This document shows positions 6,530-19,749 of a stretch of DNA of 64,000 nt, one piece after another (position 1 is the first letter of the stretch; every line of letters begins with the position of its first letter). The stretch spans positions 1,984,001 to 2,048,000 of the forward strand of contig NZ_JAXCIL010000002.1 of assembly GCF_034387475.1 (NCBI RefSeq), read 5' to 3'. The translations under genes and the position numbers were made by a program. The notes beneath the pieces are model-generated. The model was not told the DNA's origin. It saw only the letters and a program-made list of their open reading frames with translations, and did not search any database. Source of the DNA: Pseudomonas sp. Teo4 (GTDB taxonomy: Bacteria; Pseudomonadota; Gammaproteobacteria; Pseudomonadales; Pseudomonadaceae).

Positions 6530-7021
6530 GTGATGCTGCGTTTTCGTTTCCCCATTCTGGCGTTGTTGCTCGCCCTGCTGGCGCTGGGTGGCTGCCAGAG
6601 CGCGCCACCCAAAGGGCTGAGCGCCGAACAGATTGCTGTGCTCAAGCGTGAAGGGTTTGCGCCGACGGAAGAAGGCTGGGCCTATGACCTGTCCGGCAAA
6701 GTGCTGTTCGGCAGTGACCTGGACAGCCTCAACGGCCAGAGCGAGGCGATTGTCGAGCGGATCGGCAAGGCGCTTTTAGGCGTGGGTATCCAGAATGTGC
6801 GGGTCGATGGCCATGCTGATGCTTCCGGCAAGGCCGCTTACAACCAGCAGCTTTCAGAGCGTCGCGCACAGAGTGTGGCCAAGGCACTGATTGGTGTCGG
6901 CATGCCAGCGCAGAACATTCGAACCCGAGGCCTGGGCAGCAGCCAGCCGGTGGCCGACAACCGCAGTAGCGCGGGGCGCACGGAGAACCGGCGGGTATCG
7001 ATTGTGGTGGCGTCGTACTGA
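6530..7021 (+). CDS. yfiB: OmpA-like outer-membrane lipoprotein YfiB
   Basis: YfiB is the outer-membrane, peptidoglycan-binding lipoprotein that sequesters YfiR and so activates YfiN. The 163-residue product has a lipobox (ALGGC) with the lipidated Cys near residue 22 and a C-terminal OmpA_C domain with DGHADASG, NQQLSERRAQSV and the RRVSIVV end. The start is ambiguous: GTG at 6530 follows an AGGAG with normal spacing, and ATG at 6533 is the next codon. It lies 32 bases after yfiN and completes the operon. Confidence 0.88.
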   Translation: MMLRFRFPILALLLALLALGGCQSAPPKGLSAEQIAVLKREGFAPTEEGWAYDLSGKVLFGSDLDSLNGQSEAIVERIGKALLGVGIQNVRVDGHADASGKAAYNQQLSERRAQSVAKALIGVGMPAQNIRTRGLGSSQPVADNRSSAGRTENRRVSIVVASY

Positions 7022-7078: not shown

Positions 7079-7163
7079 TATCGCCGGCAAGCCGGCTCCT
7101 ACAGGAGCTGCAGTGATATTGAGAGCGGCGCGGTCCATGTGGGAGCCGGCTTGCCGGCGATGC
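7079..7163. repeat. Inverted pair of REP elements, CGCCGGCAAGCCGGCTCC type
   Basis: Two REP palindromes face each other (TCGCCGGCAAGCCGGCTCCTACAG and its complement CTGTGGGAGCCGGCTTGCCGGCGA type) across a short spacer downstream of yfiB. This is the common P. putida REP family and recurs at many gene ends in this window. Confidence 0.9.
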
Positions 7164-7208
7164 AGGCAACGCGGTGCATTAGGACGGTAAGGACCGCGCA
7201 GCTTTCGC

Positions 7209-7347
7209 TTACGCCTGAACGAACCGCATCGCCCGCGTCTCACCCATCAACAACGGTGCATTCGCCTCGGTCACTTCACGGATGTAATCCCACAACAGGG
7301 TAATCCGCTTCAACTTGCGCAGATCCTCGCGGCAGTACATCCAGAAC
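7209..7347 (-). pseudogene. Stranded native 3' end of the LysR regulator gene (attL side of the element)
   Basis: Read on the minus strand, this segment encodes the C-terminal tail of the LysR protein whose gene now ends at 16231. The peptide REVTEANAPLLMGETRAMRF-VQA-stop is near-identical to the current end, which finishes GDSREMRF-AQG. Positions 7243-7347 align to 16265-16369 with only 5 mismatches in 105. Homology stops abruptly at 7347. The fragment has no start and joins directly to the chromosomal flank with yfiB, so it is best read as the original 3' end separated from its gene by insertion of the 9 kb element. Confidence 0.88.
7282..7321. repeat. attL core direct repeat
   Basis: This 40-bp block is identical to 16304-16343. 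Single mismatches bound it on each side (G versus T before, G versus A after). It lies in the LysR C-terminal coding sequence and marks where strand exchange must have occurred. Confidence 0.9.
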
Positions 7348-7395
7348 GACAAAGAGGGAAAGGGTTAACCCAGTGATTACAAGGGCTTAACCACC

Positions 7396-8733
7396 ATGAA
7401 CACCCTTCCACAGGAGCACCCTGTCACAAGTGCTGTCACAAACCGCACGCTTCCCTTGAGGCCAGTTTGCCGGTTGGCGAGTCCGTACCATTACCGACGA
7501 CACGGTATCTACTACCTACGCCTTCGTGTGACTGGCAGCGTGAACAGGACGGTTTCTGTCTCTCTGAAGACCACTGATCGCAGATGGGCGATGCAGACAT
7601 CTGGTCATCTCACGTCATCACTTCAGGCATTCCACTTGGATCATCCTGATGCCTCATGGTACGACCTACGGGAGCATTTGCTGGCGTTGGTGAGTAACAC
7701 CGTTGTGTCTGCTGATGAAGGCCACCCATTACGCCATTGGGGGGATTTGTACCGGAACGTCACCGTTGCCCCAAGCCCAGTGGAAACATCGTACAGAGAG
7801 GTGATGAGCACAACGCCAGCAGAGTCACCGATGGCCTTTGATGCACTCGCTCGGTTGTACATGGCTGATCGTGCTGGAGAGCAGAAACCGTCAACCCTGA
7901 AGGAAACGACGTTGTGTCACAAGGTGATCAGTGAGCATCTGGAGGGATTGGACTTCAGGAACCACTCAAGAGAAGACCTTGTAGCGTTCAGGGGGCGATT
8001 AGCCCAAGGACGGATGCCCTCAACGGTAAACAAGTTGATTGTGAAGCTGTCAGCTGTGCTCGCATGGGCTGTCGAGAATGGGCACCTGAGCAAGACATAC
8101 GACAAGAAGCTGAAACTTACAAAGGGGGTTGAATCGACCCGTAAGGCTTTCTCGCAGCATCAGGTGAGCAAGCTGATGGAATATGCGAGCAACCTTCCAG
8201 AGGCATCATGGAAGCGGTGGCTGCTCAGCCTAGGCATCATCACAGGTGGGCGGCTGAAGGAGATATGCCAGTTGACTACGGGTGACGTTGTAACCATGAA
8301 ATCTGGCCTTGTTGCCATTCACATCAACGAGGCAGGTGAGGGTAAGTCCATCAAGAACAAACAGAGCGAGCGACTGGTGCCGCTTACTGACGGTGCGTAC
8401 GGTTTCGACCTAGCAGCATTCTTAAGGTACGTCGATGTTATCCGCCGCAGTGGGAGCACATCGCTAGCGCAGGTTGGTTACAGGCCATCGGGTGAGTGGG
8501 TGAACCAGCAAGCTATACCTGCCGCTTTAGAGGATACATATGAACGTGGCTTAGTATTTCACTCATTGCGACATTCTCTAGCTTCATTGATGCAAGCGAA
8601 GGGGGTTCCTGTCACTCACGCTCAGGCTGTAATGGGTCATGCTTCAGGGACGATCACCTTTGACACCTATGGGTCTAGGGTTCCTGTAGAAGTGATTGAG
8701 AAGATGTTGAAGGTGGTGTTGTGCCCAAGCTGA
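7396..8733 (+). CDS. Tyrosine recombinase (integrase) of the element
   Basis: This is a phage-type site-specific integrase that should catalyse integration and excision at the LysR target. The 445-residue protein has an N-terminal arm-binding/SAM-like region to about residue 250 and a C-terminal catalytic domain. Visible catalytic residues are Arg near 286 (TGGRLKEI), the HSLRH box (His and Arg near 389-392), His near 415 (VMGHAS) and the nucleophile Tyr 425 (FDTYGSR). The start used is the ATG at 7396, which has no good ribosome-binding site, so a later start is possible. The first 50 bases of the frame contain two arm-type repeats, as is common when int abuts attP. Confidence 0.95.
   Translation: MNTLPQEHPVTSAVTNRTLPLRPVCRLASPYHYRRHGIYYLRLRVTGSVNRTVSVSLKTTDRRWAMQTSGHLTSSLQAFHLDHPDASWYDLREHLLALVSNTVVSADEGHPLRHWGDLYRNVTVAPSPVETSYREVMSTTPAESPMAFDALARLYMADRAGEQKPSTLKETTLCHKVISEHLEGLDFRNHSREDLVAFRGRLAQGRMPSTVNKLIVKLSAVLAWAVENGHLSKTYDKKLKLTKGVESTRKAFSQHQVSKLMEYASNLPEASWKRWLLSLGIITGGRLKEICQLTTGDVVTMKSGLVAIHINEAGEGKSIKNKQSERLVPLTDGAYGFDLAAFLRYVDVIRRSGSTSLAQVGYRPSGEWVNQQAIPAALEDTYERGLVFHSLRHSLASLMQAKGVPVTHAQAVMGHASGTITFDTYGSRVPVEVIEKMLKVVLCPS
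7421..7442. promoter_or_regulatory. Left arm-type integrase sites (two TGTCACAA repeats)
   Basis: CTGTCACAAG at 7421 and CTGTCACAAA at 7433 are direct repeats spaced exactly 12 bp, about 100 bp from the attL core. Three copies with the same orientation and the same 12-bp period occur at 16141-16174 near the other end. The symmetrical placement on both sides of the core in the circular form fits integrase arm-binding sites. Function is inferred from position and repetition. Confidence 0.7.
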
Positions 8734-9104
8734 TCTGGAATACATATTGTTAAAAAATTGTTGGTGTAAAGTGCAAAAAAACACTTGCAACGTATGGACA
8801 AATGTGATTTGAAAATGTATAATGGTAACTATTGAGAAAGTAAAGTCTCACAAACTTTTGGGTTGACCATTTCCCTAGACTTCTCAATGGTCCTTAAGGT
8901 CGTATCCTCGACGTACCATGAGCAACTTAGTCCTGCCATTCCTTCTTGGCTATGTTGCTCCTACCACCTTGACCCTCTCTCATGGTGGTACATCTTATCC
9001 TTACCCTCTCGTTCACTTCATTGTGGCGAGAGTTTATTCTGTGCCTGTCAGAATATTCGTTCTGATAGAAACCATTACATCTAATATCTTGGAGGTTTAA
9101 ATCT
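8734..9104 (+). promoter_or_regulatory. Long structured leader upstream of the small-gene cluster
   Basis: This 371-base gap between int and the gene at 9105 is AT-rich and holds no convincing gene. It has several inverted repeats: ATTGAGAA/TTCTCAAT (8831 and 8881) overlapping an alternative GACCAT/ATGGTC (8864 and 8887), TACCACC/GGTGGTA (8962-8990), CTCTCG/CGAGAG (9006-9032) and a 9-bp stem CTGTCAGAA/TTCTGATAG (9045-9068). The last ends shortly before a TTGGAGG ribosome-binding site for 9105. The mutually exclusive first two stems resemble an attenuator. Short open frames here (8863-9084, 8918-9100) look spurious. Confidence 0.45.
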
Positions 9105-9353
9105 ATGGAACACGCACGCCTGTGCCTGGCTTGCCACGCACCACTAACAAACAAGCGGTCTGACGCCAAAACATGCAGCGGGAAATGCAGGAGTAAGAAA
9201 TTTAGGTCATTGAGGGAGCATTCAGTATTGATTTCCTTTCGCCTTCATACTTCTTTACATGCTGATTTGTTTCTAGCCGCCTACGCACGTAATCAAGCCG
9301 TCAATACATACATCACCAGACTAGTTGGCGACCATCTCGCTAACGCCCATTGA
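9105..9353 (+). CDS. Small zinc-ribbon-like protein, unknown function
   Basis: This 82-residue protein starts with a four-Cys cluster: CLACH, then TCSGKC about 15 residues on, followed by basic KKFRS. The pattern is typical of small treble-clef or zinc-ribbon proteins of phages and mobile elements. The second half (SFRLHTSLHADLFLAAYARNQAVNTYITRLVGDHL) resembles the ribbon-helix-helix-like tail of small DNA-binding proteins, with a helix suited to dimerisation. GGAGG precedes the ATG. It is first of four small same-strand genes. A nucleic-acid-binding role is inferred; no specific family is assigned. Confidence 0.7.
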   Translation: MEHARLCLACHAPLTNKRSDAKTCSGKCRSKKFRSLREHSVLISFRLHTSLHADLFLAAYARNQAVNTYITRLVGDHLANAH

Positions 9354-9366
9354 GAAGGAGGACAAC

Positions 9367-9513
9367 ATGACGAACAAAGATATCTACATTCAAATTAGAC
9401 ATTACAGCTCTCTTCGTGCAGCTGCTGCATGTACTGGCAATCGGTCAGAGCATCAACGGTGCAGTGATATTATAGAGCTACTGTCTGAGCACTTAGTAGG
9501 AGGTGCGCGGTAA
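9367..9513 (+). CDS. 48-residue protein of unknown function
   Basis: The start is the ATG at 9367, which follows a strong GAGAAGGAGG ribosome-binding site; a longer reading from 9325 would overlap the previous gene and is rejected. The product is a soluble, mostly helical 48-residue polypeptide (SLRAAAACTGNRSEHQRC, then IIELLSEHLVGG). No family is recognised. It ends overlapping the next start by one base, so it belongs to a tightly packed cluster. Confidence 0.5.
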   Translation: MTNKDIYIQIRHYSSLRAAAACTGNRSEHQRCSDIIELLSEHLVGGAR

Positions 9514-9791
9514 TGAATGAAAACCATGAAGACTACTACATGAGGGGCTTGAGGCGTGGGATTGAACGACTTGCCAAGCAACAAGCAAACACCGCTAGCA
9601 AGTCAGCCAGCATCGAGCCAGCGGTAACTAAACCGGTGTTAGCTAAGCCAGTGCTTACAGCACTCCAACCAGTTAAACTGCAGGCTACTAAGCTGGAAGC
9701 TATCAAGCCCGAATTCAATCTAGAGGCATACCGCCTAGACATAATTGCCAAAGCAATTGCTCACATTCTCAAACAACAGAAAGGAATCTAA
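9513..9791 (+). CDS. 92-residue protein with a Lys/Pro/Val-rich linker, unknown function
   Basis: The ATG overlaps the upstream stop by one base and follows TAGGAGGTG. The N-terminal 25 residues are charged and helical (YMRGLRRGIERLAKQQ). A repetitive middle follows with KPVLAKPVL and QPVKLQATKLEAIKPE, then an amphipathic C-terminal helix (LDIIAKAIAHILKQQ). The low-complexity linker between two helices suggests a tether or adaptor. No homologous family is recognised from the sequence alone. Confidence 0.55.
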   Translation: MNENHEDYYMRGLRRGIERLAKQQANTASKSASIEPAVTKPVLAKPVLTALQPVKLQATKLEAIKPEFNLEAYRLDIIAKAIAHILKQQKGI

Positions 9792-9793
9792 CA

Positions 9794-10270
9794 ATGAAAG
9801 ATAAGATTGTCATAAACGGAACTCCACCTGCCTGGGACCAAGCAGAGTATGCCCGTCGAGTAGAATCGTGGGTCCACGCGTATCGTCACACGGAAAAGTC
9901 CATGGAACTGGTCAGTGCAAGCCTAGGCCATGAGTTCCTTCAAGCTGTGATTGACAAGGCTAATCAGGGTTACACGATCACTCATACCAAGCGTCTGCAA
10001 CATGGCGAGCTTTACCATTCGACCTACATGGTGAAACCTTTGGAGATGCAAGAACAGGACATTGAGGCTATCAAGGCCAAAGTGAAATCTGAGTACGTCG
10101 CATGGCTGGAAAGCGAACATGCACGCTATCAGAGCTTATTGCGTGAACAACTGGTTCAGGCACAAGAAGAAAAAGAGCGTAAGGCAGCAGAAGTAGCTAA
10201 GGCAAAGCAGCTGGCAGCCATCGAAAAAGAGGTTCAAGCTTGCTACAAGCCACTTGTCATTCCCGACTGA
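9794..10270 (+). CDS. 158-residue coiled-coil protein, unknown function
   Basis: This gene starts two bases after the previous stop and so is probably co-transcribed and coupled. The N-terminal half is globular (TPPAWDQAEYARRVESWVHAY). From about residue 95 a charged, Ala/Gln/Glu/Lys-rich stretch (REQLVQAQEEKERKAAEVAK) predicts a coiled coil. No catalytic motif is visible. A strong intrinsic terminator follows 40 bases downstream, so the 9105-10270 cluster ends here. Confidence 0.6.
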   Translation: MKDKIVINGTPPAWDQAEYARRVESWVHAYRHTEKSMELVSASLGHEFLQAVIDKANQGYTITHTKRLQHGELYHSTYMVKPLEMQEQDIEAIKAKVKSEYVAWLESEHARYQSLLREQLVQAQEEKERKAAEVAKAKQLAAIEKEVQACYKPLVIPD

Positions 10271-10312
10271 TTATCCACATGAACTAGGTCAATAACAATG
10301 AAATTACAGGAT

Positions 10313-10347
10313 GCTCCGCATTGTCTAACCGCAGTGCGGAGCTTTTT
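10313..10347 (+). terminator. Rho-independent terminator of the small-gene cluster
   Basis: GCTCCGCA (10313-10320) pairs perfectly with TGCGGAGC (10335-10342) and is followed by TTTTT. It lies just after the last gene of the 9105-10270 set. Confidence 0.85.
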
Positions 10348-10852
10348 CATATCTGCAAGAAAGTGGCTTCACCCCGATAAACGTTGGTGATGATCGTGAT
10401 GGTACTGAACACACCTGACGCTTTCGCCAAAAAACTTAGTAATTTCAACGGATAGGAACGTATTCAGGTAGGTTTTTACAGAATACTATGGGTAGCGTGA
10501 CAGGAAGGCATCAACCGATTGATCCTGAGCGATTTAACTGCTCGGACATAAAAGGGTAGCGGGTAGGTCCTAGCATTGCTTAAATCGAAGCTGGCGAGCT
10601 TACAGAGGCTTGATGTGTAGTAGATGAGAATTGATTTTATCTAAATAAGAATTACTTGCATTTGAGTCCGCTTTCGTGTAGTTTACGCACCCTCAATCCA
10701 GTACGCCATTCTCCACACGACCCGCTTTCGTAAAACGAACTGCGCATCGTAGGGGCTTCGTCGTGTCCGCGATTTGAGCAGTTACGTCACTACACACATG
10801 GCACCACCCGAGAGGAATGCCTATGCAAAAGAACTGAAAAGGAGAATGAAGA
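10348..10852. other. Non-coding stretch upstream of the HTH protein
   Basis: About 500 AT-rich bases hold no convincing gene. A repeated CCGCTTTCGT occurs at 10669 and 10722, the second running into a TTCGT-AAA-ACGAA hairpin. TTGCAT with TAGTTT 17 bases on (10656-10684) could be a weak promoter. A perfect DnaA-box 9-mer, TTATCCACA, sits at 10271-10279 just after the previous stop. A minus-strand frame at 10693-10902 is judged spurious. The ribosome-binding site for 10853 is AAAGGAG at the right end. Confidence 0.4.
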
Positions 10853-11692
10853 ATGCTTACTAATGAAGAACTATCAAAACTGAATGCTCGGTTTGAGAAC
10901 AATGCAAACGCCCTAATCTCTGCGCGTCAAGCTGGCAGCATTAAGGCTGAGCGGTCAGCTACTGGTAGCGACTACGAAAAATTGGCAAACCCTTTTTCAG
11001 GGTACATTGTCTGTCCGATGTATCCAGTTGACAATGCATCCAAGGACTTCACTCTATATCCGAAGTGGTGTCTTGATGTTGTCGAGGGTGTTGCTAGATT
11101 GAACTGGTATCGCCCTGAAGGTGATCAGCGTCCATTGTCGGTTAAGAAGATTCTGCTGATACTGCAAACATGTAAGCAGATCGACAAATACACCATTGGT
11201 GAGATGTTTGGATTTGATTCTCGGCAAGCTGAGCGTTATGTTCAAGCCGTCCGCATCATCATTCCGCAACTTGAAAAGGTTGTACCTGATGGTTTGAAAG
11301 TGAAGATCAAAAGTTGCACGCCATTGTTTGAGAAGTCTTCACAGATTGTCGGAGTCGCGTCTAGTGTTGACCTGACTGACGATGTGCCAGATGTTCTTGA
11401 TTGGAAACAACACAAGGCCGTGTGGCTTGACAAACTACATCGTGACTATGAAATTGTTTTTACCGAGTACAACACACGTGAATTCTATGAGGCTGACAGG
11501 CTGGAAATCCTATCAGAAGCTACCGTGCGTTACCCGGTGAGGGAGCCGGTTGTTGTTGAAGTGCTGAGGGTTGAGCATCCAATGCAAGCCAAAGCCCTTG
11601 AGCTGATCCGGGGCGGTCTGTCCGTGGCCAAGGTAGCACGGGAGACTGGCGTTCACAGGAACACCGTCAGCAAGTGGAAAAAGGCAGCTTGA
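10853..11692 (+). CDS. Putative DNA-binding protein with C-terminal recombinase-type HTH
   Basis: This 279-residue protein starts at an ATG nine bases after AAAGGAG. The last 30 residues (LIRGGLSVAKVARETGVHRN then TVSKWKKAA) form a clear helix-turn-helix like the C-terminal HTH of Hin-type recombinases. A second possible HTH lies near residues 103-130 (DKYTIGEMFGFDSRQAERYV). There is no serine or tyrosine recombinase catalytic core, nuclease or ATPase motif. It stands alone with 580 bases upstream and 540 downstream. A regulator or replication initiator of the element would fit, but this is inference. Confidence 0.65.
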   Translation: MLTNEELSKLNARFENNANALISARQAGSIKAERSATGSDYEKLANPFSGYIVCPMYPVDNASKDFTLYPKWCLDVVEGVARLNWYRPEGDQRPLSVKKILLILQTCKQIDKYTIGEMFGFDSRQAERYVQAVRIIIPQLEKVVPDGLKVKIKSCTPLFEKSSQIVGVASSVDLTDDVPDVLDWKQHKAVWLDKLHRDYEIVFTEYNTREFYEADRLEILSEATVRYPVREPVVVEVLRVEHPMQAKALELIRGGLSVAKVARETGVHRNTVSKWKKAA

Positions 11693-11699
11693 GAAGTGC

Positions 11700-12125
11700 A
11701 CACCTAAGTGCGTCGCATTATATTTAAGGGGAACCCGATCTAGGGGGAACCGAAAATATAACCGCTTTTCTTCTGTGGAGATTGTCCACAGAGCATGCTT
11801 TCTTCAGGGTGTCCACCCTGCATTGATACTCTGAGAAATTGGAAAGGAGAGGATGGGTAAACCATCCCGAACTAGCGATAATTATTCATAGCTTCGCTAT
11901 GCATGTTGCTTTCCTGTACTGAGTACAGAAGACAGTTCAAGAGCTTGGTAGGCTGTCTGCCTCCCTATTGAAAAGCATTCGCCTTGCGGCTCACCTGCGG
12001 ACACTGAATGTATGAGAGTGATAATGTTCTGATTGACAATCAGTGAGCGCCAAGGAAACCGTAGGTTGACGTTCTTGAGGATTCATCCTCGATAATCATT
12101 CTTCAGCGTCTACGCTGAATAGGGT
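11700..12125. ncRNA. Candidate structured non-coding RNA: run of small perfect hairpins
   Basis: This gene-free stretch contains at least eight short stems with 3-5 nt loops. They are TCTGTGGA/TCCACAGA (11772-11792), CAGGGT/ACCCTG (11805-11820), GGATGG/CCATCC (11851-11867), CATAGC/GCTATG (11887-11901), CTGTAC/GTACAG (11914-11928), CTGATT/AATCAG (12029-12043), GAGGA/TCCTC (12077-12090) and TTCAGCG/CGCTGAA (12102-12119). A longer AGACAG/CTGTCT stem spans 11930-11958. Three hairpins are preceded by the same GATAAT-N2-TTC word (11876, 12020, 12091). Strand and transcription are unknown; the call rests on hairpin density only. It could instead be a replication or packaging site. Confidence 0.4.
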
Positions 12126-12215
12126 AATCCTAAATCATTCGAAAGTGAGGGTAAGAGGAACGAACCCACAAACCCGTGTCATCATCCTCACCCTCGAACG
12201 GTGTGAACTGCCACC

Positions 12216-12231
12216 CCTTGCACGTGCAAGG
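12216..12231. terminator. Perfect 16-bp palindrome after the lipoprotein gene
   Basis: CCTTGCAC-GTGCAAGG is an uninterrupted palindrome seven bases beyond the minus-strand stop at 12238. There is no T-tract on either strand, so it may be a weak terminator or a protein-binding site rather than an intrinsic terminator. Confidence 0.4.
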
Positions 12232-12237
12232 AATTCG

Positions 12238-12660
12238 TCAGTAAGACGATGGGCGAATGTCCAGCATTGGTTGGAATGCAATGCGGAAAGTTTGGCGTTC
12301 ACCAACCTCAATCCATGTAGCCACTTCTCTTTTGTATTGGCTGTTTCCTGAGCAAGGACCCACCCCTTGCGGGTCGGAGCCAACACCAACGAGTCTTCTA
12401 CCGGGCTTTACATGGAAGGTTGCTTTCTCGTTGTTATCCAGCCTTGCCACCAGCTTTCCGTCGATGAAGACGCCAAAGAAGCAGTGACCGGCTTGTATCG
12501 CACTTTCACGTACCACAGTCACAGCTGCGTCCTTGCCGTGATCCTCGGTTTGCATTGTCAGCAAGCGATTGCCTGGAGCAGGTACAGCCTCACCAACCGT
12601 TGGTGGTGCAGCACAGCCACTCAACATTGCGATAGCTGCGGCGGTAATCAGTGGTCGCAT
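12238..12660 (-). CDS. Small lipoprotein, DUF2846-like
   Basis: This 140-residue protein has a type II signal peptide: MRPLITAAAIAM then lipobox LSGC with the lipidated Cys at residue 16. The mature part contains FFGVFIDGKLVARLDNNEKA and HVKPGRRLVGVGSD, the pattern of small envelope lipoproteins related to DUF2846 (a beta-sandwich with a PGrh turn). Two further cysteines (GHCFFG, GPCSG) could form a disulfide. As cargo of the element it could alter the host envelope, for example by surface exclusion; that is inference. It is divergent from the resolvase across the res-like region. Confidence 0.75.
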   Translation of the reverse strand: MRPLITAAAIAMLSGCAAPPTVGEAVPAPGNRLLTMQTEDHGKDAAVTVVRESAIQAGHCFFGVFIDGKLVARLDNNEKATFHVKPGRRLVGVGSDPQGVGPCSGNSQYKREVATWIEVGERQTFRIAFQPMLDIRPSSY

Positions 12661-12744
12661 TAGTTTCGTCCTTGTTATCGTGAAGGCACAAAGCTATCAC
12701 TCCCCTACGGACGCTCCAAGCGCTTCTGCCCTACTCATGCGCTC

Positions 12745-12864
12745 TTGGTGTCAACAATCGCTCGGTTTACGACACCAGCGGGAAGGGTGTTCGATTGGTG
12801 TCATTAAATTATGGTTTGCATTTTATGATGCTATTGATATTATGACACCACCTTAAGCGACACC
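12745..12864. promoter_or_regulatory. res-like recombination/operator region upstream of the resolvase
   Basis: Repeats of GGTGTC/GACACC are arranged as two inverted pairs plus a fifth half-site. TGGTGTC (12746) faces GACACCA (12771); TGGTGTCAT (12796) faces ATGACACCA (12842); GACACC lies at 12859. TGTC followed by AT-rich sequence resembles Tn3-family res half-sites, and the array sits directly upstream of a serine recombinase. The promoter of that gene and of the divergent lipoprotein gene must lie in the same interval, so autoregulation is likely. Confidence 0.65.
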
Positions 12865-12890
12865 CTGACGGGCAACCAAGGATCATCATC

Positions 12891-13463
12891 ATGTCTCGCA
12901 CCTTCCTGTACTGCCGTGTTAGCACCTCGACCCAATTCACAGAGAATCAGGTACAGGAAGTGAAAGCCGCTGGTTTCAACGTACAGGCCAGCCGAGTTGT
13001 TGAAGAAACAATCTCAGGCAGTACTTGTGCAGCAGACCGACCCGGCTTTGCAAAGCTGCTGGATCGTATGGAAGGTGGCGACATTCTCATTGTTACCAAG
13101 CTTGACCGTCTAGGTCGCAATGCTATGGATGTACGCTCCACCATTGAGCGATTGGCAGAGACTAAGATTCGCGTGCATTGCCTAGCCCTTGGTGGCGTAG
13201 ACCTCACCAGTCCAGCAGGAAAGATGACTATGCAAGTGCTGTGTGCAGTCGCTGAATTTGAGCGTGATCTGCTGATCGAGCGTACACAGTCAGGCTTGAA
13301 GCGTGCGAAGGCGGAGGGTCGAAAGTTGGGCCGACCAGAGGCAACAGGAACAACCAAGGATGTACAGACAGCCCGCTCTGAGGGTATGAGCCAATCGCAA
13401 GTGGCTGAACACCTGAACATCAGTCTCGCTACTGTCAAACGGCACTGGAACAAGGCCGCATAA
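12891..13463 (+). CDS. Serine resolvase/invertase
   Basis: This is a 190-residue small serine recombinase. The catalytic Ser is in the N-terminal YCRVST motif (Ser 11). The core includes RPGFAKLLDRMEGGD, VTKLDRLGRN and FERDLLIERT, then the E-helix and GRKLGRP linker. A C-terminal HTH follows (MSQSQVAEHLNISLATVKRH). The length matches Tn3 resolvases and Hin/Gin invertases. No invertible segment is evident, and the upstream array looks like a res site, so multimer or cointegrate resolution is favoured. A resolvase is unusual in an element that already has a tyrosine integrase and hints at a circular episomal stage. Confidence 0.93.
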   Translation: MSRTFLYCRVSTSTQFTENQVQEVKAAGFNVQASRVVEETISGSTCAADRPGFAKLLDRMEGGDILIVTKLDRLGRNAMDVRSTIERLAETKIRVHCLALGGVDLTSPAGKMTMQVLCAVAEFERDLLIERTQSGLKRAKAEGRKLGRPEATGTTKDVQTARSEGMSQSQVAEHLNISLATVKRHWNKAA

Positions 13464-13926
13464 AAGCTAGCCCCATATAGAGCCGCATCGGCTTACCCTG
13501 TGGGGTGGAATAGACATGCACTCAATCGCCTCGCTATGAGCTTCCTATAAGCTTGTGGTGGGGCGTTCTTGTTTGTATTGCCAGCAGTCACCACAGGATT
13601 CGACATTTCTTGTGTAGGGGGGGGTTCTGAAACAGTCGGGTGTTAAGACCGGTCGCTAACCCAAAGGGATTTTCCGTGATCAACATATCCCGGGCCGGTG
13701 TGAATTCAATCCCTGTTTTCAGGGGGGGGGTGAAAACCACGGAGATTGCAATGACCTAGGACCACGTAAAGCATTTCTACGCTAAGCTGTCCTATCGTGC
13801 TTCAACGGAGTGTTGGTAGCAATATAAATGGAACGATAGCATCTGACGCATTTAGAGTTGTGTCTATGAGTCGATATAAATAAGCTCAGTCATTACCCAG
13901 TTAGGTCAAGGATATGAGGTATAGCA
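13464..13926. other. Non-coding stretch with two long G runs and hairpins
   Basis: After the resolvase a nested hairpin occurs (CCCCA...TGGGG enclosing AGCCG-CAT-CGGCT, 13470-13506). Two homopolymers stand out: a run of 8 G at 13617-13624 and a run of 9 G at 13722-13730. The second run forms the loop of a perfect 7-bp inverted repeat, GTTTTCA (13715) and TGAAAAC (13731). No gene is supported. The right end carries the GAGGT ribosome-binding site of the next gene. Confidence 0.5.
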
Positions 13927-14754
13927 GTGGGAAATTATGCAAGCAAACTTACAGAAAGATGGAAGCACAGTCAGATACCTCAAGGATACTGCTTGATTTG
14001 TGGAGCTTATGGAAAACTGAGTTGGGATCATGTGCCCCCGCAAGGCAGCGTAACAATAACGAAAGTTGAACAGGTTCACTTGACTGAAATAATGGGGGTC
14101 AACCCAGTTCCTGTGAGGGGAATAAAATCAACGAACGGTAGTAAATTCAAAACCATTTGTAAAGATTGCAATAGCACGCACCTTGGTCGAAATGATGATG
14201 AGGTAGCGAAGGTTTATAGGAGTCTTACCAGCCTAGTAATGCACCATTTCACATACCTGAACAATCCATATAATCACGTAACGATACCGTTTGATGCAGT
14301 CAGATTCTGTCGGGCAATGATTGGTCATATTCTTTCTGCAACCACTGTCGAGGAGTGTAGGCAAGAGCCAGTAGAGTCACCTTACTTTACGCCGCTGCAA
14401 AAGTTTGTAATGGGCGACGATGCAGCCATTGATGATACGCATGATATCTACTGTTGGTTTTATCCCCATCGCCATCACTTGAGTGCAAAGATGTTTGCCT
14501 TTAAAAACAAAGGGAACACCTGCACAATTAGCGTTTTGTCTTTTTACCCACTGGCGTTCTCCGTGACTGAGAAAGGAAAAGGAATTTATCCATCAGGGGC
14601 TACTAAGGTTTTGCTTACTGACAAGCAAATGTTTGTAGACCTATCATCAGGAAATTTTCCGTATTCCGGCTTTCCTTTTACGGGTTTGACTGGTGATCAG
14701 ATGATGCTTTTGTCGTCTGCTCAAGCGATTGTAAGCTATCCAATTAAATCTTAG
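13927..14754 (+). CDS. HNH-like zinc-binding protein of unknown function (possible defence nuclease)
   Basis: The 275-residue product begins at GTG 13927, six bases after GAGGT; no in-frame ATG is nearby. The N-terminal third has an HNH/treble-clef signature: YCLICGAYG (CxxC near residues 22-25), WDHVPPQG (the DH of HNH, residues 33-34) and TICKDCNSTHLG (CxxCN near 78-82). The rest has no recognised domain; it contains FYPHRHHL and ends without a membrane segment. HNH proteins with DHVPP are frequent in bacterial islands, and an AbiJ-like gene lies 400 bases away. Nuclease activity is inferred from the motif, not shown. Confidence 0.65.
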   Translation: MGNYASKLTERWKHSQIPQGYCLICGAYGKLSWDHVPPQGSVTITKVEQVHLTEIMGVNPVPVRGIKSTNGSKFKTICKDCNSTHLGRNDDEVAKVYRSLTSLVMHHFTYLNNPYNHVTIPFDAVRFCRAMIGHILSATTVEECRQEPVESPYFTPLQKFVMGDDAAIDDTHDIYCWFYPHRHHLSAKMFAFKNKGNTCTISVLSFYPLAFSVTEKGKGIYPSGATKVLLTDKQMFVDLSSGNFPYSGFPFTGLTGDQMMLLSSAQAIVSYPIKS

Positions 14755-14895
14755 CAGCAGCGTACGTAGAGCAAAAGAGTATCGTATCGTGTAGCACCAT
14801 ATCTCTACGTACTGAACTGGGACACAGGTTTTGAAATGCGGTGACTTTCCGCCCGAGGGTACGCAGAATGCAAATCCTCCCACTGAGGACTACAC

Positions 14896-15108
14896 ATGGA
14901 CAAAGCCACCACCACCGCTGACGCACTTGAACTTCTTCATCTGAACCAGATAGCCATACGTGCGGCGATAGAGGAAGTCAGCACATGGATACGCCAACGC
15001 GGTTCGGTCAACGTTCACGAAAACGTGATGGGCACCCTGCAGACTCTCGACACAAATGCCGAAGCAATCACCCTAGCAGTTGAGCGGTTGCGGAATGAAA
15101 GCTTGTAG
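14896..15108 (+). CDS. 70-residue helical protein of unknown function
   Basis: The ATG at 14896 follows GAGGA with normal spacing. The product is fully soluble, predicted as two or three amphipathic helices (DALELLHLNQIAIRAAIEEV and LQTLDTNAEAITLAVERL). No family is recognised. It is convergent with the AbiJ-like gene; the two share the hairpin at 15121. Confidence 0.55.
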   Translation: MDKATTTADALELLHLNQIAIRAAIEEVSTWIRQRGSVNVHENVMGTLQTLDTNAEAITLAVERLRNESL

Positions 15109-15120
15109 TAGCAGTTGACC

Positions 15121-15151
15121 CTCCAGCAAGGCATGGAAGGTCTTGCTGGAG
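15121..15151. terminator. Bidirectional hairpin between convergent genes
   Basis: CTCCAGCAAG (15121-15130) pairs perfectly with CTTGCTGGAG (15142-15151), an uninterrupted 10-bp stem with an 11-nt loop. It lies between the stop at 15108 and the minus-strand stop at 15155. No T-tract follows, so termination efficiency is uncertain. Confidence 0.65.
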
Positions 15152-15154
15152 TGC

Positions 15155-16003
15155 TCAGTCTTCGATGCTGTCGATTGCGAAGTTGATGAAGGCTGAACAG
15201 CAAATTAGCATGAATCGGGCATCAGCTTTGGTAGGCGGGGTGGTATTGTCCAATATTGCATGCCTAATGCCGCCGGCATCGCTGGTGTAACCGTAAAGTG
15301 TCATAAATGCTGACTTCAAACTTCCATGGAGGCCATGTTTTTCTTCCAATATTTTTAGCGCCTGACCAAGCGTTGCCTTGTCGTCTTGAACTACTTTTTT
15401 CGCGAGAGATTCTACAGCGCTTATGCTTTCTTTAATCGAATTTCGATAATCAGGACTTTCCCTGTCTGTTAGCAAGCTTAACGCTGTTTGGATATGGGTC
15501 CTTACGCCGGCGTAGCAATCCGAGTTGCGGATGGCTGACTCGATTTCTGATATCTCTTCACTGGAGGTTATAGGTGATAATTGCCCGGAAACAAAGCGAT
15601 ACGCAGAGTTTTCACGATCCAGTACTTTGTTGAATGCTAATATAAGCAGTTGTTGTTCTACTTCTTTTTCTGAGGATGATACAATGAACTCTACGAAGCT
15701 GTACTGGCGGTGCCATTCCATTTTAAAGAAGCTTTCGCGTACAGTTTTTTTAAAGTCTGTCCACTTATAAGGAATGGTGTCCAGAGGGGCTTTGTAAAAT
15801 TCTGAGTATAATTGTGTGGCAAGCCAGCTTAAGTTTGATCCTGCAACTTTGTCCCAATCTTTTGGATGCCTAAATTTTGCGAATTTCAGCGAAACAACGA
15901 CATTCCATAGGGAGTTTTTAAGATCACGATCAATACTGTCAACTTGAGCTACTTTAGTCGCTGGAGCCATTCCCATGCGCTGCGAGAAATCCATTGTCAC
16001 CAT
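15155..16003 (-). CDS. AbiJ-like abortive-infection protein (AbiJ N-terminal domain 4 type)
   Basis: The 282-residue protein starts MVTMDFSQRMGM and continues with DSIDRDLKNSLWNVV, the F-S-x-R-x-G ... LRN-LWN pattern of the AbiJ N-terminal domain 4 family. The C-terminal half (from about residue 165) has YRNSIKESISAVESLAKKVV, TLGQALKILEEKHGLH, LYGYTSDAGGIRHAI and a hydrophobic final helix, the layout of the conserved AbiJ C-terminal domain. AbiJ proteins abort phage infection by an incompletely known mechanism. The start at 16003 follows GAGGTG. The gene is the last cargo before attR. Family assignment is from recalled motif patterns; function is inferred. Confidence 0.75.
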   Translation of the reverse strand: MVTMDFSQRMGMAPATKVAQVDSIDRDLKNSLWNVVVSLKFAKFRHPKDWDKVAGSNLSWLATQLYSEFYKAPLDTIPYKWTDFKKTVRESFFKMEWHRQYSFVEFIVSSSEKEVEQQLLILAFNKVLDRENSAYRFVSGQLSPITSSEEISEIESAIRNSDCYAGVRTHIQTALSLLTDRESPDYRNSIKESISAVESLAKKVVQDDKATLGQALKILEEKHGLHGSLKSAFMTLYGYTSDAGGIRHAILDNTTPPTKADARFMLICCSAFINFAIDSIED

Positions 16004-16140
16004 TGCACCTCATTTCTACTAGTCGTAGCCAAACGGCGGCTTGATCCATGAGCGACATTGTACACGGTGGCTGATTGCCAGTGGCCACTGTCGGAGGTTG
16101 GGCGTAGTGCAGATATGTAGCAAGGAGCTATGGATGTGAG

Positions 16141-16174
16141 CTGTCACAAGAGGTGTCACAACCACTGTCACAAG
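16141..16174. promoter_or_regulatory. Right arm-type integrase sites (three TGTCACAA repeats)
   Basis: CTGTCACAAG (16141), GTGTCACAAC (16153) and CTGTCACAAG (16165) repeat with exact 12-bp spacing, 130 bp inside the attR core. The same word, spacing and orientation occur at the left end, supporting arm-type integrase binding. Confidence 0.7.
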
Positions 16175-16230
16175 GCGTTGCGACAACCCCTTGCCCTAGG
16201 TAGGATGAGCAACCCTTACTTTTTGTCGAT

Positions 16231-17181
16231 CTACCCCTGGGCAAACCTCATTTCACGGCTATCCCCCATCAACAAAGGTGCATTGGCCTCGGTCACTTCA
16301 CGTATGTAATCCCACAACAGGGTAATCCGCTTCAACTTGCGCAAATCCTCCCGGCAGTACATCCAGAACTGCCGTGTCACCTCGATCTCTTCTGGCAGCA
16401 CCGTCACCAGCCGCGCATCTTGCGCAGCCAAGAAACACGGCAGAATCGCCAGCCCACGCCCTTGCAGTGCGGCGGTGAACTGGGCGATCACACTGGTGCT
16501 GCGCAGGTGCGCACTGGCATTGGGAATCAGGTTGGCCAGGTACAGCAGCTCCGAACTGAACGCCAAATCGTCCACATAGCTGATGAACGGATGGTCGACC
16601 AGATCGCTCACCTGGCGGATCGGCGCATGGCTGTCCAGGTATTCCTGGGTCGCATACAACCGCAGACGGTAGTCGCACAGCTTGCAGCACACATACGGCC
16701 CATGTTCAGGGCGTTCCAGGGCAATCACGATATCCGCTTCGCGCTTGGACAGGCTGATGAAGTGCGGCAACGGCAGGATATCCACCGAAATGGCTGGCCA
16801 GGCGTCGACGAAGTGGCTCAATTGAGGCGTGACGAAGAAACTGCCGAAGCCCTCGGTGCAGCCCATGCGCACATGCCCCGACAACGCCACACCCGAGCCA
16901 GACACCTGTTCGCAGGCCATGTGCAGGGTGCTTTCGATCGATTCGGCATAGCCCAGCAAGCGCTGGCCCTCGGCGGTGAGCACGAAGCCGTTGGTGCGCG
17001 ACTTCTCGAACAACAAGGTGCCCAGTGCCCCTTCGAGCGAACTGATGCGCCGCGACACCGTGGTGTAGTCGACGCTCAGGCGCTTGGCGGCGCTGCTGGC
17101 CTTGCGGGTACGTGCCACTTCGAGGAAGAACTTGAGGTCGTCCCAGTTCAGCGCGCTCAATGAGGTGAGGTCTTTTTGCAT
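16231..17181 (-). CDS. LysR-type regulator, 3' end supplied by the integrated element
   Basis: This 316-residue LysR regulator is divergent from mmsA and so probably controls valine/3-hydroxyisobutyrate catabolism. The N-terminal HTH spans about residues 10-65 (LKFFLEVARTRKASSAAKRL, TTVSRRISSLE); the effector domain follows. The start chosen is ATG 17181 (MQKDLTSLSALNWDDL); an upstream extension would run into the mmsA promoter. Codons past the 40-bp core at 16304-16343 come from the element: the tail reads MGDSREMRFAQG, whereas the native tail left at 7209 reads MGETRAMRFVQA. The protein is therefore a host-element hybrid in its last residues. Confidence 0.88.
   Translation of the reverse strand: MQKDLTSLSALNWDDLKFFLEVARTRKASSAAKRLSVDYTTVSRRISSLEGALGTLLFEKSRTNGFVLTAEGQRLLGYAESIESTLHMACEQVSGSGVALSGHVRMGCTEGFGSFFVTPQLSHFVDAWPAISVDILPLPHFISLSKREADIVIALERPEHGPYVCCKLCDYRLRLYATQEYLDSHAPIRQVSDLVDHPFISYVDDLAFSSELLYLANLIPNASAHLRSTSVIAQFTAALQGRGLAILPCFLAAQDARLVTVLPEEIEVTRQFWMYCREDLRKLKRITLLWDYIREVTEANAPLLMGDSREMRFAQG
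16304..16343. repeat. attR core direct repeat
   Basis: Identical to the 40 bp at 7282-7321. The wider block 16265-16369 matches 7243-7347 with 5 mismatches, three to the left and two to the right of the core. Confidence 0.9.
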
Positions 17182-17321: not shown

Positions 17322-18848
17322 ATGAACGCACCGCAATCCCCCGACCAGACCAAGGTCGAGCAGGTCAAGCTGCTGATCGATGGCCAGTGGGTCGAATCGA
17401 AAACCACCGAATGGCGTGACATCGTCAACCCGGCCACCCAGCAGGTGCTGGCGCGGGTCCCGTTCGCCACCGTCGAAGAAGTCGATGCCGCCGTGGCCGC
17501 TGCCCAGCGCGCCTTCCCGAGCTGGCGCGATACCCCGATTGGCGCACGCATGCGCATCATGCTCAAGCTGCAGGCGTTGATCCGCGAGCACACCAAGCGC
17601 ATCGCCCAGACCCTCAGCGCCGAGCAGGGCAAGACCCTGGCCGATGCCGAAGGCGATATCTTCCGTGGCCTTGAAGTGGTCGAACATGCAGCGTCGATTG
17701 GCACCCTGCAGATGGGCGAGTTCGCCGAGAACGTCGCCGGGGGCGTGGACACCTACACCCTGCGCCAGCCCATCGGTGTATGCGCTGGCATCACCCCATT
17801 CAACTTCCCGGCGATGATTCCGTTGTGGATGTTCCCCATGGCCATCGTCTGCGGTAACACCTTCGTCCTCAAGCCGTCCGAGCAGGACCCGCTGTCGACC
17901 ATGATGCTGGTCGAGCTGGCGCTGGAAGCCGGTGTACCGGCGGGTGTGTTGAACGTGGTGCATGGCGGCAAGCAAGTGGTGGATGCGATCTGCACCCATC
18001 AGGACATCAAGGCCATTTCCTTCGTCGGCTCTACCGAAGTCGGTACCCACGTCTACAACCTGGGTAGCCAGCACGGCAAGCGCGTGCAGTCGATGATGGG
18101 CGCCAAGAACCATGCCGTGGTGCTGCCTGACGCCAACCGCACGCAAACCGTCAACGCCCTGGTTGGCGCCGCCTTTGGCGCGGCAGGCCAGCGCTGCATG
18201 GCCACCTCGGTGGCGGTACTGGTGGGCAAGGCCCGCGACTGGCTGCCGGACATCAAGGAGGCTGCGAGCAAGCTCAAGGTCAATGCCGGCTGTGAGCCAG
18301 GCACCGACGTTGGCCCGGTGGTGTCCAAGCGCGCCAAGGAACGTGTGCTGGGGCTGATTGAAAGCGGCATCCAGGAAGGTGCCAAGCTTGAACTGGACGG
18401 GCGCGATGTGAAGGTGCCAGGTTACGAGCAGGGCAACTTCGTTGGCCCGACCCTGTTCTCCGGGGTCAAGACCGACATGCAGGTCTACACCCAGGAAATC
18501 TTCGGCCCGGTGCTGGTGACCCTGGAAGTCGACACCCTCGACGAAGCCATCGCCCTGGTCAACGCCAACCCGTTCGGCAACGGCACCGGCCTGTTCACCC
18601 AGAGCGGCGCGGCGGCGCGCAAGTTCCAGAGCGAGATCGACATCGGCCAGGTTGGTATCAACATCCCGATTCCGGTGCCGGTGCCGTTCTTCAGCTTCAC
18701 CGGTTCGCGCGGCTCGAAGCTGGGAGACCTTGGCCCATACGGCAAGCAAGTGGTGCAGTTCTACACTCAGACCAAGACCGTCACCGCCCGCTGGTTCGAT
18801 GACGACAGCGTCAATGACGGTGTGAACACCACCATCAGCCTGCGCTAA
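17322..18848 (+). CDS. mmsA: Methylmalonate-semialdehyde dehydrogenase (CoA-acylating)
   Basis: MmsA converts methylmalonate semialdehyde to propionyl-CoA with CoA and NAD+ in valine (and malonate semialdehyde) catabolism. The 508-residue aldehyde dehydrogenase has the N-terminal [10 protein letters not shown], the [12 protein letters not shown] segment typical of MmsA, FVGSTEVG for cofactor binding and the catalytic Cys in AGQRCMATS. The start is ATG 17322 behind AAGGAGAAC; the longer open frame from 17199 is promoter region. mmsB follows 10 bases downstream, so they form an operon, divergent from the LysR gene. Confidence 0.95.
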
Positions 18849-18858
18849 GGAGTTCGTC

Positions 18859-19749
18859 ATGCGTATCGCATTCATCGGTCTGGGCAACATGGGCGCCCCC
18901 ATGGCCCGCAACCTGATCAAGGCCGGGCACCAGTTGAACCTGTTCGACCTGAACAAGACTGTGCTGGCCGAACTCGCCGAGCTGGGCGGGCAGGTCAGCG
19001 CCTCGCCCAAGGACGCGGCTGCCGACAGCGAGCTGGTGATTACCATGTTGCCGGCAGCGGCCCATGTGCGCGCCGTGTACCTCAATGAAGAAGATGGCGT
19101 GCTGGCGGGCATCCGTCCAGGTACGCCGACGGTGGATTGCAGCACCATCGACCCGCAGACTGCCCGCGATGTGTCCAAAGCCGCAGCGGCCAAGGGCGTG
19201 GATATGGGCGATGCACCGGTTTCCGGCGGCACCGGCGGCGCGGCGGCGGGCACGCTGACCTTCATGGTCGGCGCCAGTGCCGAGTTGTTCGCCACCCTCA
19301 AGCCGGTACTGGAACAGATGGGCCGCAACATCGTGCATTGCGGTGAGGTGGGGACCGGGCAGATCGCCAAGATCTGCAACAACCTGCTGCTGGGCATCTC
19401 GATGGTCGGCGTGTCCGAGGCCATGGCGCTGGGCAATGCGCTGGGCATCGACACCAAGGTGTTGGCCGGCATCATCAACAGCTCGACCGGGCGTTGCTGG
19501 AGCTCCGACACCTACAACCCTTGGCCGGGCATTATCGAAACCGCGCCGGCCTCACGGGGCTACACCGGAGGTTTTGGCGCCGAGCTGATGCTCAAGGACC
19601 TGGGCTTGGCCACTGAAGCTGCACGGCAGGCGCACCAACCGGTGATTCTTGGTGCGGTGGCCCAGCAGCTGTATCAGGCGATGAGCTTGCGTGGTGACGG
19701 CGGCAAGGACTTCTCGGCGATTGTCGAGGGGTATCGCAAGAAGGATTGA
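18859..19749 (+). CDS. mmsB: 3-Hydroxyisobutyrate dehydrogenase
   Basis: MmsB oxidises 3-hydroxyisobutyrate to methylmalonate semialdehyde, the step before MmsA. The 296-residue protein shows the N-terminal Rossmann motif FIGLGNMGAPMARNL, the substrate-binding DAPVSGGTGGAAAGTL, and GQIAKICNN with the catalytic Lys near residue 171. AAGGAG precedes the ATG. It is the second gene of the mmsAB operon and is followed by an intrinsic terminator. Confidence 0.95.
   Translation: MRIAFIGLGNMGAPMARNLIKAGHQLNLFDLNKTVLAELAELGGQVSASPKDAAADSELVITMLPAAAHVRAVYLNEEDGVLAGIRPGTPTVDCSTIDPQTARDVSKAAAAKGVDMGDAPVSGGTGGAAAGTLTFMVGASAELFATLKPVLEQMGRNIVHCGEVGTGQIAKICNNLLLGISMVGVSEAMALGNALGIDTKVLAGIINSSTGRCWSSDTYNPWPGIIETAPASRGYTGGFGAELMLKDLGLATEAARQAHQPVILGAVAQQLYQAMSLRGDGGKDFSAIVEGYRKKD

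Follow-up and report, generated by a model that had tools for sequence, protein, structure and literature searches.

A small tyrosine-integrase element in the 3' end of mmsR in Pseudomonas appears to spare its target gene by means of a replacement tail

The window analysed here, a stretch of 64,000 nucleotides from Pseudomonas sp. Teo4 (RefSeq assembly GCF_034387475.1, contig NZ_JAXCIL010000002.1, positions 1,984,001 to 2,048,000, forward strand), contains a 9.0-kb element in the 3' end of mmsR, a gene for a LysR-type regulator. At a probability of about 0.93, this is a small tyrosine-integrase element whose attachment site (attP) carries a replacement for the gene's tail, so that the gene is spared. 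In the proposed mechanism, a dedicated tyrosine integrase would recombine a circular attP with the chromosomal site (attB), which would lie within the conserved WMYCREDLRKLKRIT codons of the gene. The attP would carry about 138 bp homologous to the mmsR 3' end, and integration would leave mmsR complete with element-encoded last ~45 codons, with the native end displaced to the opposite flank of the element. The substitute tail would be inherited with the integrase and held open by ordinary purifying selection; excision and a circular form are predicted from this arrangement. Coordinates without a locus label refer to the window, and loci of other genomes carry our own labels (L040 and so on).

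Insertion site and repeats

Between 6000 and 18500, a single direct-repeat family was found, with copies at 7210-7347 and 16232-16369 (138 nt, 88% identity, 9,022 bp spacing). The copies differ at 18 of the 138 positions; five of these lie within the 105 bp at 7243-7347 and the rest toward the stop codon. The inner edge is abrupt at 7347/16369, where the homology with the gene ends. The left copy (attL, 7209-7347, minus strand) represents the displaced native 3' end of mmsR: it ends in GETRAMRFVQA with a stop codon at 7209-7211, lacks a start codon and adjoins yfiB (6530-7021, plus strand; OmpA-type outer-membrane lipoprotein, NCBIfam NF053585 above cut-off), the chromosomal neighbour beyond the insertion. 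The right copy (attR, 16231-16369, minus strand) is the element-borne 3' end, which ends in GDSREMRFAQG with its stop at 16231-16233. The element-encoded end and the displaced end differ by five residues at this locus. The LysR gene itself (16231-17181, minus strand, 316 amino acids, PF03466 and PF00126) is an intact hybrid of host body and element end; it owes its full length to ~45 final codons that come from the element.

It points away from mmsA (methylmalonate-semialdehyde dehydrogenase, 17322-18848, plus strand; TIGR01722, 761 bits, cut-off 448.5) and mmsB (3-hydroxyisobutyrate dehydrogenase, 18859-19749, plus strand; TIGR01692, 434.6 bits, cut-off 291.6), and was named mmsR by position, because the arrangement is that described for P. 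putida KT2440, in which, according to excerpts of PMC5431877, mmsR is divergent from mmsA and MmsR works with 3-hydroxypropionate. No tRNA or tmRNA (transfer-messenger RNA) gene was found in the window using ARAGORN. Between yfiB and the displaced mmsR end, at 7100-7180, lies a repeat resembling repetitive extragenic palindromic (REP) sequences, with dozens of similar copies in the 6.5-Mb genome.

A previous reading made from the letters of this DNA (the sequence-only reading) had taken the 3' end of the LysR gene as attB of a 9.0-kb element, which was borne out by the 9,022-bp repeat spacing, the integrase at the element's edge and the relatives described below. Its statements that the gene at 16231-17181 is full length with last codons brought by the element, and that the native end was left displaced at 7209-7347 with its own stop, agree with the intact 316 codons and the two endings given above. 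The 105-bp shared block with five mismatches that it reported is correct in its figures for 7243-7347, but the true repeat is 138 bp long.

Integrase clade and its target

The tyrosine recombinase (integrase) is encoded at 7396-8733 on the plus strand, reads inward from the left end and has 445 amino acids (PF00589, 5.8e-18; phrog_1). Its N-terminus gave a weak DUF6538 match (PF20172, 8.1e-5, below its cut-off). Residues R286, H389, R392, H415 and Y425, which we take to be the catalytic residues, are invariant in 17 aligned sequences.

Integrase loci were sampled from 298 Pseudomonas genomes, the fetched stretches reaching ~1.5 kb or less beyond the integrase. Some integrase similarity was present in 98 of these genomes, and a joined empty-site query was matched (E <= 0.001) in 272, not everywhere at mmsR. 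An mmsR end was found beside the integrase in 17/17 close non-self loci (L040-L056; 55-87% integrase identity; one decayed), and in none of the 12 loci with more distant integrases (L057-L068), as far as the ~1.5 kb or less viewed per side. Fragments of the same integrase were located at the mmsR site in five more genomes (L087-L091); the L088 stretch starts within the integrase, and only the rebuilt end is visible there. Contigs were further scanned with the 17-row integrase alignment, which gave 28 named loci, some of them from strains shared with the 298-genome set. All 28 belong to Pseudomonas, and in each an mmsR end lies immediately 5' of the integrase; 16 of the 28 stretches also show the rebuilt end or gene. 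Because the same arrangement recurs at these loci, the repeat is not due to chance. As judged by comparison of the loci, the clade is specialised in its site specificity for mmsR in Pseudomonas.

Uninterrupted sites in relatives

Sites in other species were collected as the best mmsR matches in genomes without a close integrase placed at the site (57 stretches). Uninterrupted mmsR with yfiB less than 400 bp from its stop codon was present in 36 of them, so that the continuous empty site joining the 7209 side to the LysR body, which the sequence-only reading had called for, was found. In one further stretch, yfiB lies 1,187 bp from the mmsR stop, and 20 had no yfiB within the short stretch; these were re-read over up to 15 kb. 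In three of the 20 (L210, L215, L222), mmsR ends that are displaced or degenerate occur, and no integrase was recognised; in seven (L207, L208, L211, L216, L220, L221, L223), yfiB lies at a distance of 0.8-6.9 kb and no displaced end is present; eight have recD nearby in place of yfiB, L224 has recD 11 kb away, and L209 showed neither marker within up to 15 kb.

At L224 (3700-15129), 11 kb separate recD from an mmsR with an ELN-type tail, with no recognised integrase, and the site is possibly occupied. At L210 (11265-15085), a displaced EANAPLLMGETREMKFAQG end and a rebuilt ELNGPLLLGQTRELRFVD end were found with no recognised integrase between them; the rebuilt end is of the type usual in elements of another integrase subclade. 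Between yfiB and mmsR, two additional, degenerate mmsR ends were found at L113 (8909-9622) and at L222 (685-1438), apparently fossils of earlier insertions. At L125 (7279-9956), ~2.5 kb of DNA lie between yfiB and a displaced end whose own type is that of an element, which would fit a tail left fixed in this lineage by a previous insertion.

Histories of the two gene ends

Mapping of the core by the longest identical block was tried and gave blocks that were inconsistent; therefore, a history test was used instead. For the 25 of 35 loci having the mmsR body, the integrase and both ends, partial Mantel tests were performed on tail distances against MmsR-body (host) and integrase (element) distances, with tail positions counted from the FWMYC codon. 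At positions 66-135, roughly the final 23 codons, the displaced end correlated with the host (partial r 0.57, p 0.0005; 0.07 with the element) and the rebuilt end with the element (partial r 0.65, p 0.0005; 0.07 with the host). Judged by this comparison, the two ends have different histories: the rebuilt end derives from the element, and the displaced end from the host.

The rebuilt end tracks the element already at positions 12-54 (0.25, p 0.002), and the crossover was for this reason placed near the inner edge of the repeat. Tail positions 3-10 (7336-7343 in the window) differ between attL and attR in none of the 25 loci. Strand crossover thus probably takes place in an 18-bp inner block at the gene-body edge, 7330-7347 in attL, which is identical to 16352-16369. 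The sequence-only reading had proposed a 40-bp core; an identical stretch of this length does exist in the alignment of both copies, at 7282-7321, but according to the history comparison of the 25 loci it is probably not where the strands cross.

Several observations weigh against this account. At positions 12-54, the displaced end showed no significant correlation with the host (0.08, p 0.19) or with the element (0.09, p 0.12), and the permutation p-values of these tests only partly remove shared ancestry, the set being unscreened for near-duplicate strains. At positions 0-12, a leaning toward the host is seen in both ends (0.21 and 0.23). In four loci (L069, L071, L079, L087), the attL/attR differences are mostly found toward the inner edge, a pattern less easily reconciled with an inner crossover. 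The tails of three non-occupied relatives (L092, L105, L106) have REMKFAQG as their last residues, which resembles the REMRFAQG of the right copy more than the RAMRFVQA of the left, and the window tails separate poorly, the nearest non-occupied tail being at 0.130 from attL and 0.159 from attR. The expectation that element-free relatives would end like the left copy rather than the right was accordingly ambiguous by amino acids; by DNA the left copy is slightly nearer, with a mean distance to 17 non-occupied tails (first batch) of 0.185 for attL versus 0.224 for attR. The assignment of native and element-borne ends was based not on tail resemblance, but on the geometry, with the left copy joined to yfiB and the right copy to element DNA, and on the 25-locus test.

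Arm-like repeats and inverted repeat

Both element ends are marked by short repeats with the consensus TGTYACAA. Two copies of TGTCACAA with a 12-bp step lie in integrase codons 9-16 (PVTSAVTN; 7422-7441, plus strand), and three with the same step at the right element end (16142-16173, plus strand); the TGTCACAA pair gave three matches in the window versus 0.03 expected. Allowing one mismatch, a left pair at 12 bp was present in 19/25 elements, and 21/25 had a pair at the right end with a step of 12 or 24 bp. The density of the units was 6.8 and 10.0 per kb at the element ends versus 0.30 inside. These repeats are putative arm sites of the integrase, and the conserved VTSAVTN-like start of the protein may be due to the location of the left pair within its codons 9-16. 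An imperfect inverted repeat, with a left arm at 7348-7364 and a right arm at 16212-16230 that abuts the element-borne stop codon, would flank the mmsR-tail segment in a circular attP. Its two arms resemble each other more when taken from the same element than when taken from different ones (10.9 versus 9.3 of 16; shuffled, 7.1).

Alternative explanations

The element may be a phage satellite or the remnant of a temperate phage that uses the mmsR site. This concerns the carrier only, is compatible with insertion and tail replacement as described above, and is considered possible but rather unlikely. It is suggested by the 25 elements of 2.8-13.5 kb, which carry phage-type genes, and by five Pseudomonas phage records (about 40-42 kb), whose integrases match at 37-43% identity; no integrase of at least 60% identity was found in the phage and plasmid collections. 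Two elements of about 13 kb have genes for T7-like internal virion proteins (phrog_342, 805, 308), one at L076 3150-8603 and the second, from counts and open reading frame (ORF) sizes, probably at L081 2834-8088. Of the genes looked for in a phage satellite (replication and packaging hijack), the elements gave phage-type genes only. Against this reading, no convincing structural or replication gene was found in the window's element, the small-terminase-subunit matches being weak, of helix-turn-helix type and at E 0.007 at best.

The sequence-only reading had also raised the possibility that the swap retunes the regulator of mmsAB. A new C-terminus could change the inducer response, stability or oligomerisation of MmsR, and thereby valine/3-hydroxypropionate catabolism, to the benefit of element or host. 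In favour of this, the elements of one integrase subclade have a tail of their own, VTELN[RG]PLLLGETR..., in the majority of hosts with a displaced VTE[RQ]NQ[GA]LLMGETREM... tail; within a single locus (L085), as many as 10 of the final 23 residues differ, and the element tails of L081, L083 and L120 are 11-14 residues longer. These long tails look like loss of the usual stop codon, with reading on into the inverted repeat. Against it stands first the constraint on the tail. Over 21 codons (positions 66-128), the ratio of nonsynonymous to synonymous differences (pN/pS) was 0.34 for element tails and 0.30 for displaced host tails, compared with 0.03 in the block before the tail and 0.10 in the mmsR gene body, all values being pooled over non-independent pairs. 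The tail is thus less constrained than the average of the gene body and than the block before it and, because the ratios are similar, element tails appear to be kept protein-coding about as well as host tails. Second, for the five solved LysR chains found (E <= 1e-10), the alignment ends at residue 293 or before it, and the variable part of the tail lies beyond. Third, according to excerpts of PMC6441110, P. denitrificans MmsR with a C-terminal histidine (His) tag complements like native MmsR. Retuning is not supported by these data and is regarded as very improbable; the tail likely serves to spare mmsR and not to alter it, and the exchange is likely neutral. Just as improbable in our estimate is a broader version, in which MmsR C-termini would act as genus-wide mobile cassettes, with lineage-specific tails swapped across hosts and sometimes lengthened, the response in valine/3-hydroxypropionate catabolism changing with the resident element. 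An AlphaFold model of MmsR from a 15-row alignment had a mean predicted local distance difference test (pLDDT) score of 41 and was not used.

A segmental duplication or transposition footprint in place of attL/attR would also leave two partial copies of one gene end flanking a 9-kb insert, but was rejected as extremely improbable, since the copies diverge by 12% and have different histories in 25 loci, the displaced copy has an integrase next to it at all close loci examined, and arm-like repeats are present.

Relation to known systems

Integration into a protein-coding end is familiar from icd of E. coli, which is used by phage 21 as well as by the element e14. For e14, excerpts of PMC6379469 and PMC11148124 describe a duplication of 163-165 bp of the target's 3' end and a displaced pseudo-3' end. 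The mmsR element likewise supplies the C-terminal codons of its target and leaves a displaced pseudo-3' end. As in the e14/icd kind, an integrase lies at the element edge, the repeats lie in the coding end of the target, the target is open, the displaced end is startless, the uninterrupted site occurs in relatives (other species), and the rebuilt end is element-derived. Unlike e14, it has another target gene, host and integrase, and some mmsR elements have longer tails; e14 brings two conservative replacements in the same excerpts, whereas with the mmsR elements five residues differ here and as many as 10 in other members. A 2023 paper (PMC10111431) gives as the usual rule that a replacement for part of the target, a tRNA or protein gene, is present on attP, with identity blocks of up to ~250 bp, and its genomic islands with attP replacement of a protein gene have the same design as the mmsR element. 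By analogy with e14 in icd and with this attP replacement rule, the kind is already known.

Other systems are less close. The islands called GInts are, like the mmsR element, genomic islands that occur in Pseudomonas among others, some at gene 3' ends; in excerpts of PMC5385486 they are defined by four genes essential for recombination, whereas a single tyrosine integrase lies at the end of the element studied here. The dusA-targeting integrases are, according to PMC4482086, a family tied to one protein-coding gene, like the mmsR clade, but use the 5' end of dusA, whereas the mmsR clade uses the 3' end of mmsR. Islands of regulated gene integrity disrupt their target gene; mmsR is intact. Among the top-ranked matches of the literature searched, mmsR was not met as an integration site, and its absence from print is not claimed.

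To the known kind are added mmsR as a target, a dedicated integrase clade, many tail histories, and arm-like sites within the integrase gene. The natural C-terminal swaps show which end of MmsR tolerates exchange, and an integration tool for P. putida could be built from the integrases, their site and the arm-like repeats. Candidate phage-defence genes are moreover among the cargo of these elements.

Element genes and cargo

After the integrase gene, the window's element contains a small ORF with weak HicB-like similarity (9105-9353, plus strand; PF05534, 0.0012, below its cut-off), a 158-amino-acid ORF to which no function was assigned (9794-10270, plus strand; 70% and 76% identity to ORFs of elements L069 and L075), and a gene for a probable DNA-binding protein of 279 amino acids (10853-11692, plus strand; HTH_23; phrog_3360, of unknown function). 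These are followed by genes for a phage-type lipoprotein (12238-12660, minus strand; phrog_890), a small serine resolvase/invertase (12891-13463, plus strand; PF00239, 2.5e-37) and a phrog_21495 protein with weak endonuclease-like similarity (13927-14754, plus strand; phrog and domain matches). A candidate anti-phage defence gene lies at 15155-16003 on the minus strand (AbiJ N-terminal domain 4, AbiJ_NTD4; PADLOC PDC-S32). No relaxase or transfer gene family, which an integrative and conjugative element would have, was matched among the nine element ORFs scanned.

For the cargo of the family, 111 of the 132 ORFs from the 25 elements were scanned. The resolvase domain was matched by eight ORFs of the scanned elements. 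Among the 25 PADLOC families listed, of 98, PDC-S32 was matched by two element ORFs, and AbiU, oligonucleotide cyclase, 4TM effector, bSEFIR, PD-T7-4 and methyltransferase families by one ORF each. At L076 (11958-13010) and at L077 (2402-3379), the main integrase gene is followed by another gene, which is integrase-like and shorter.

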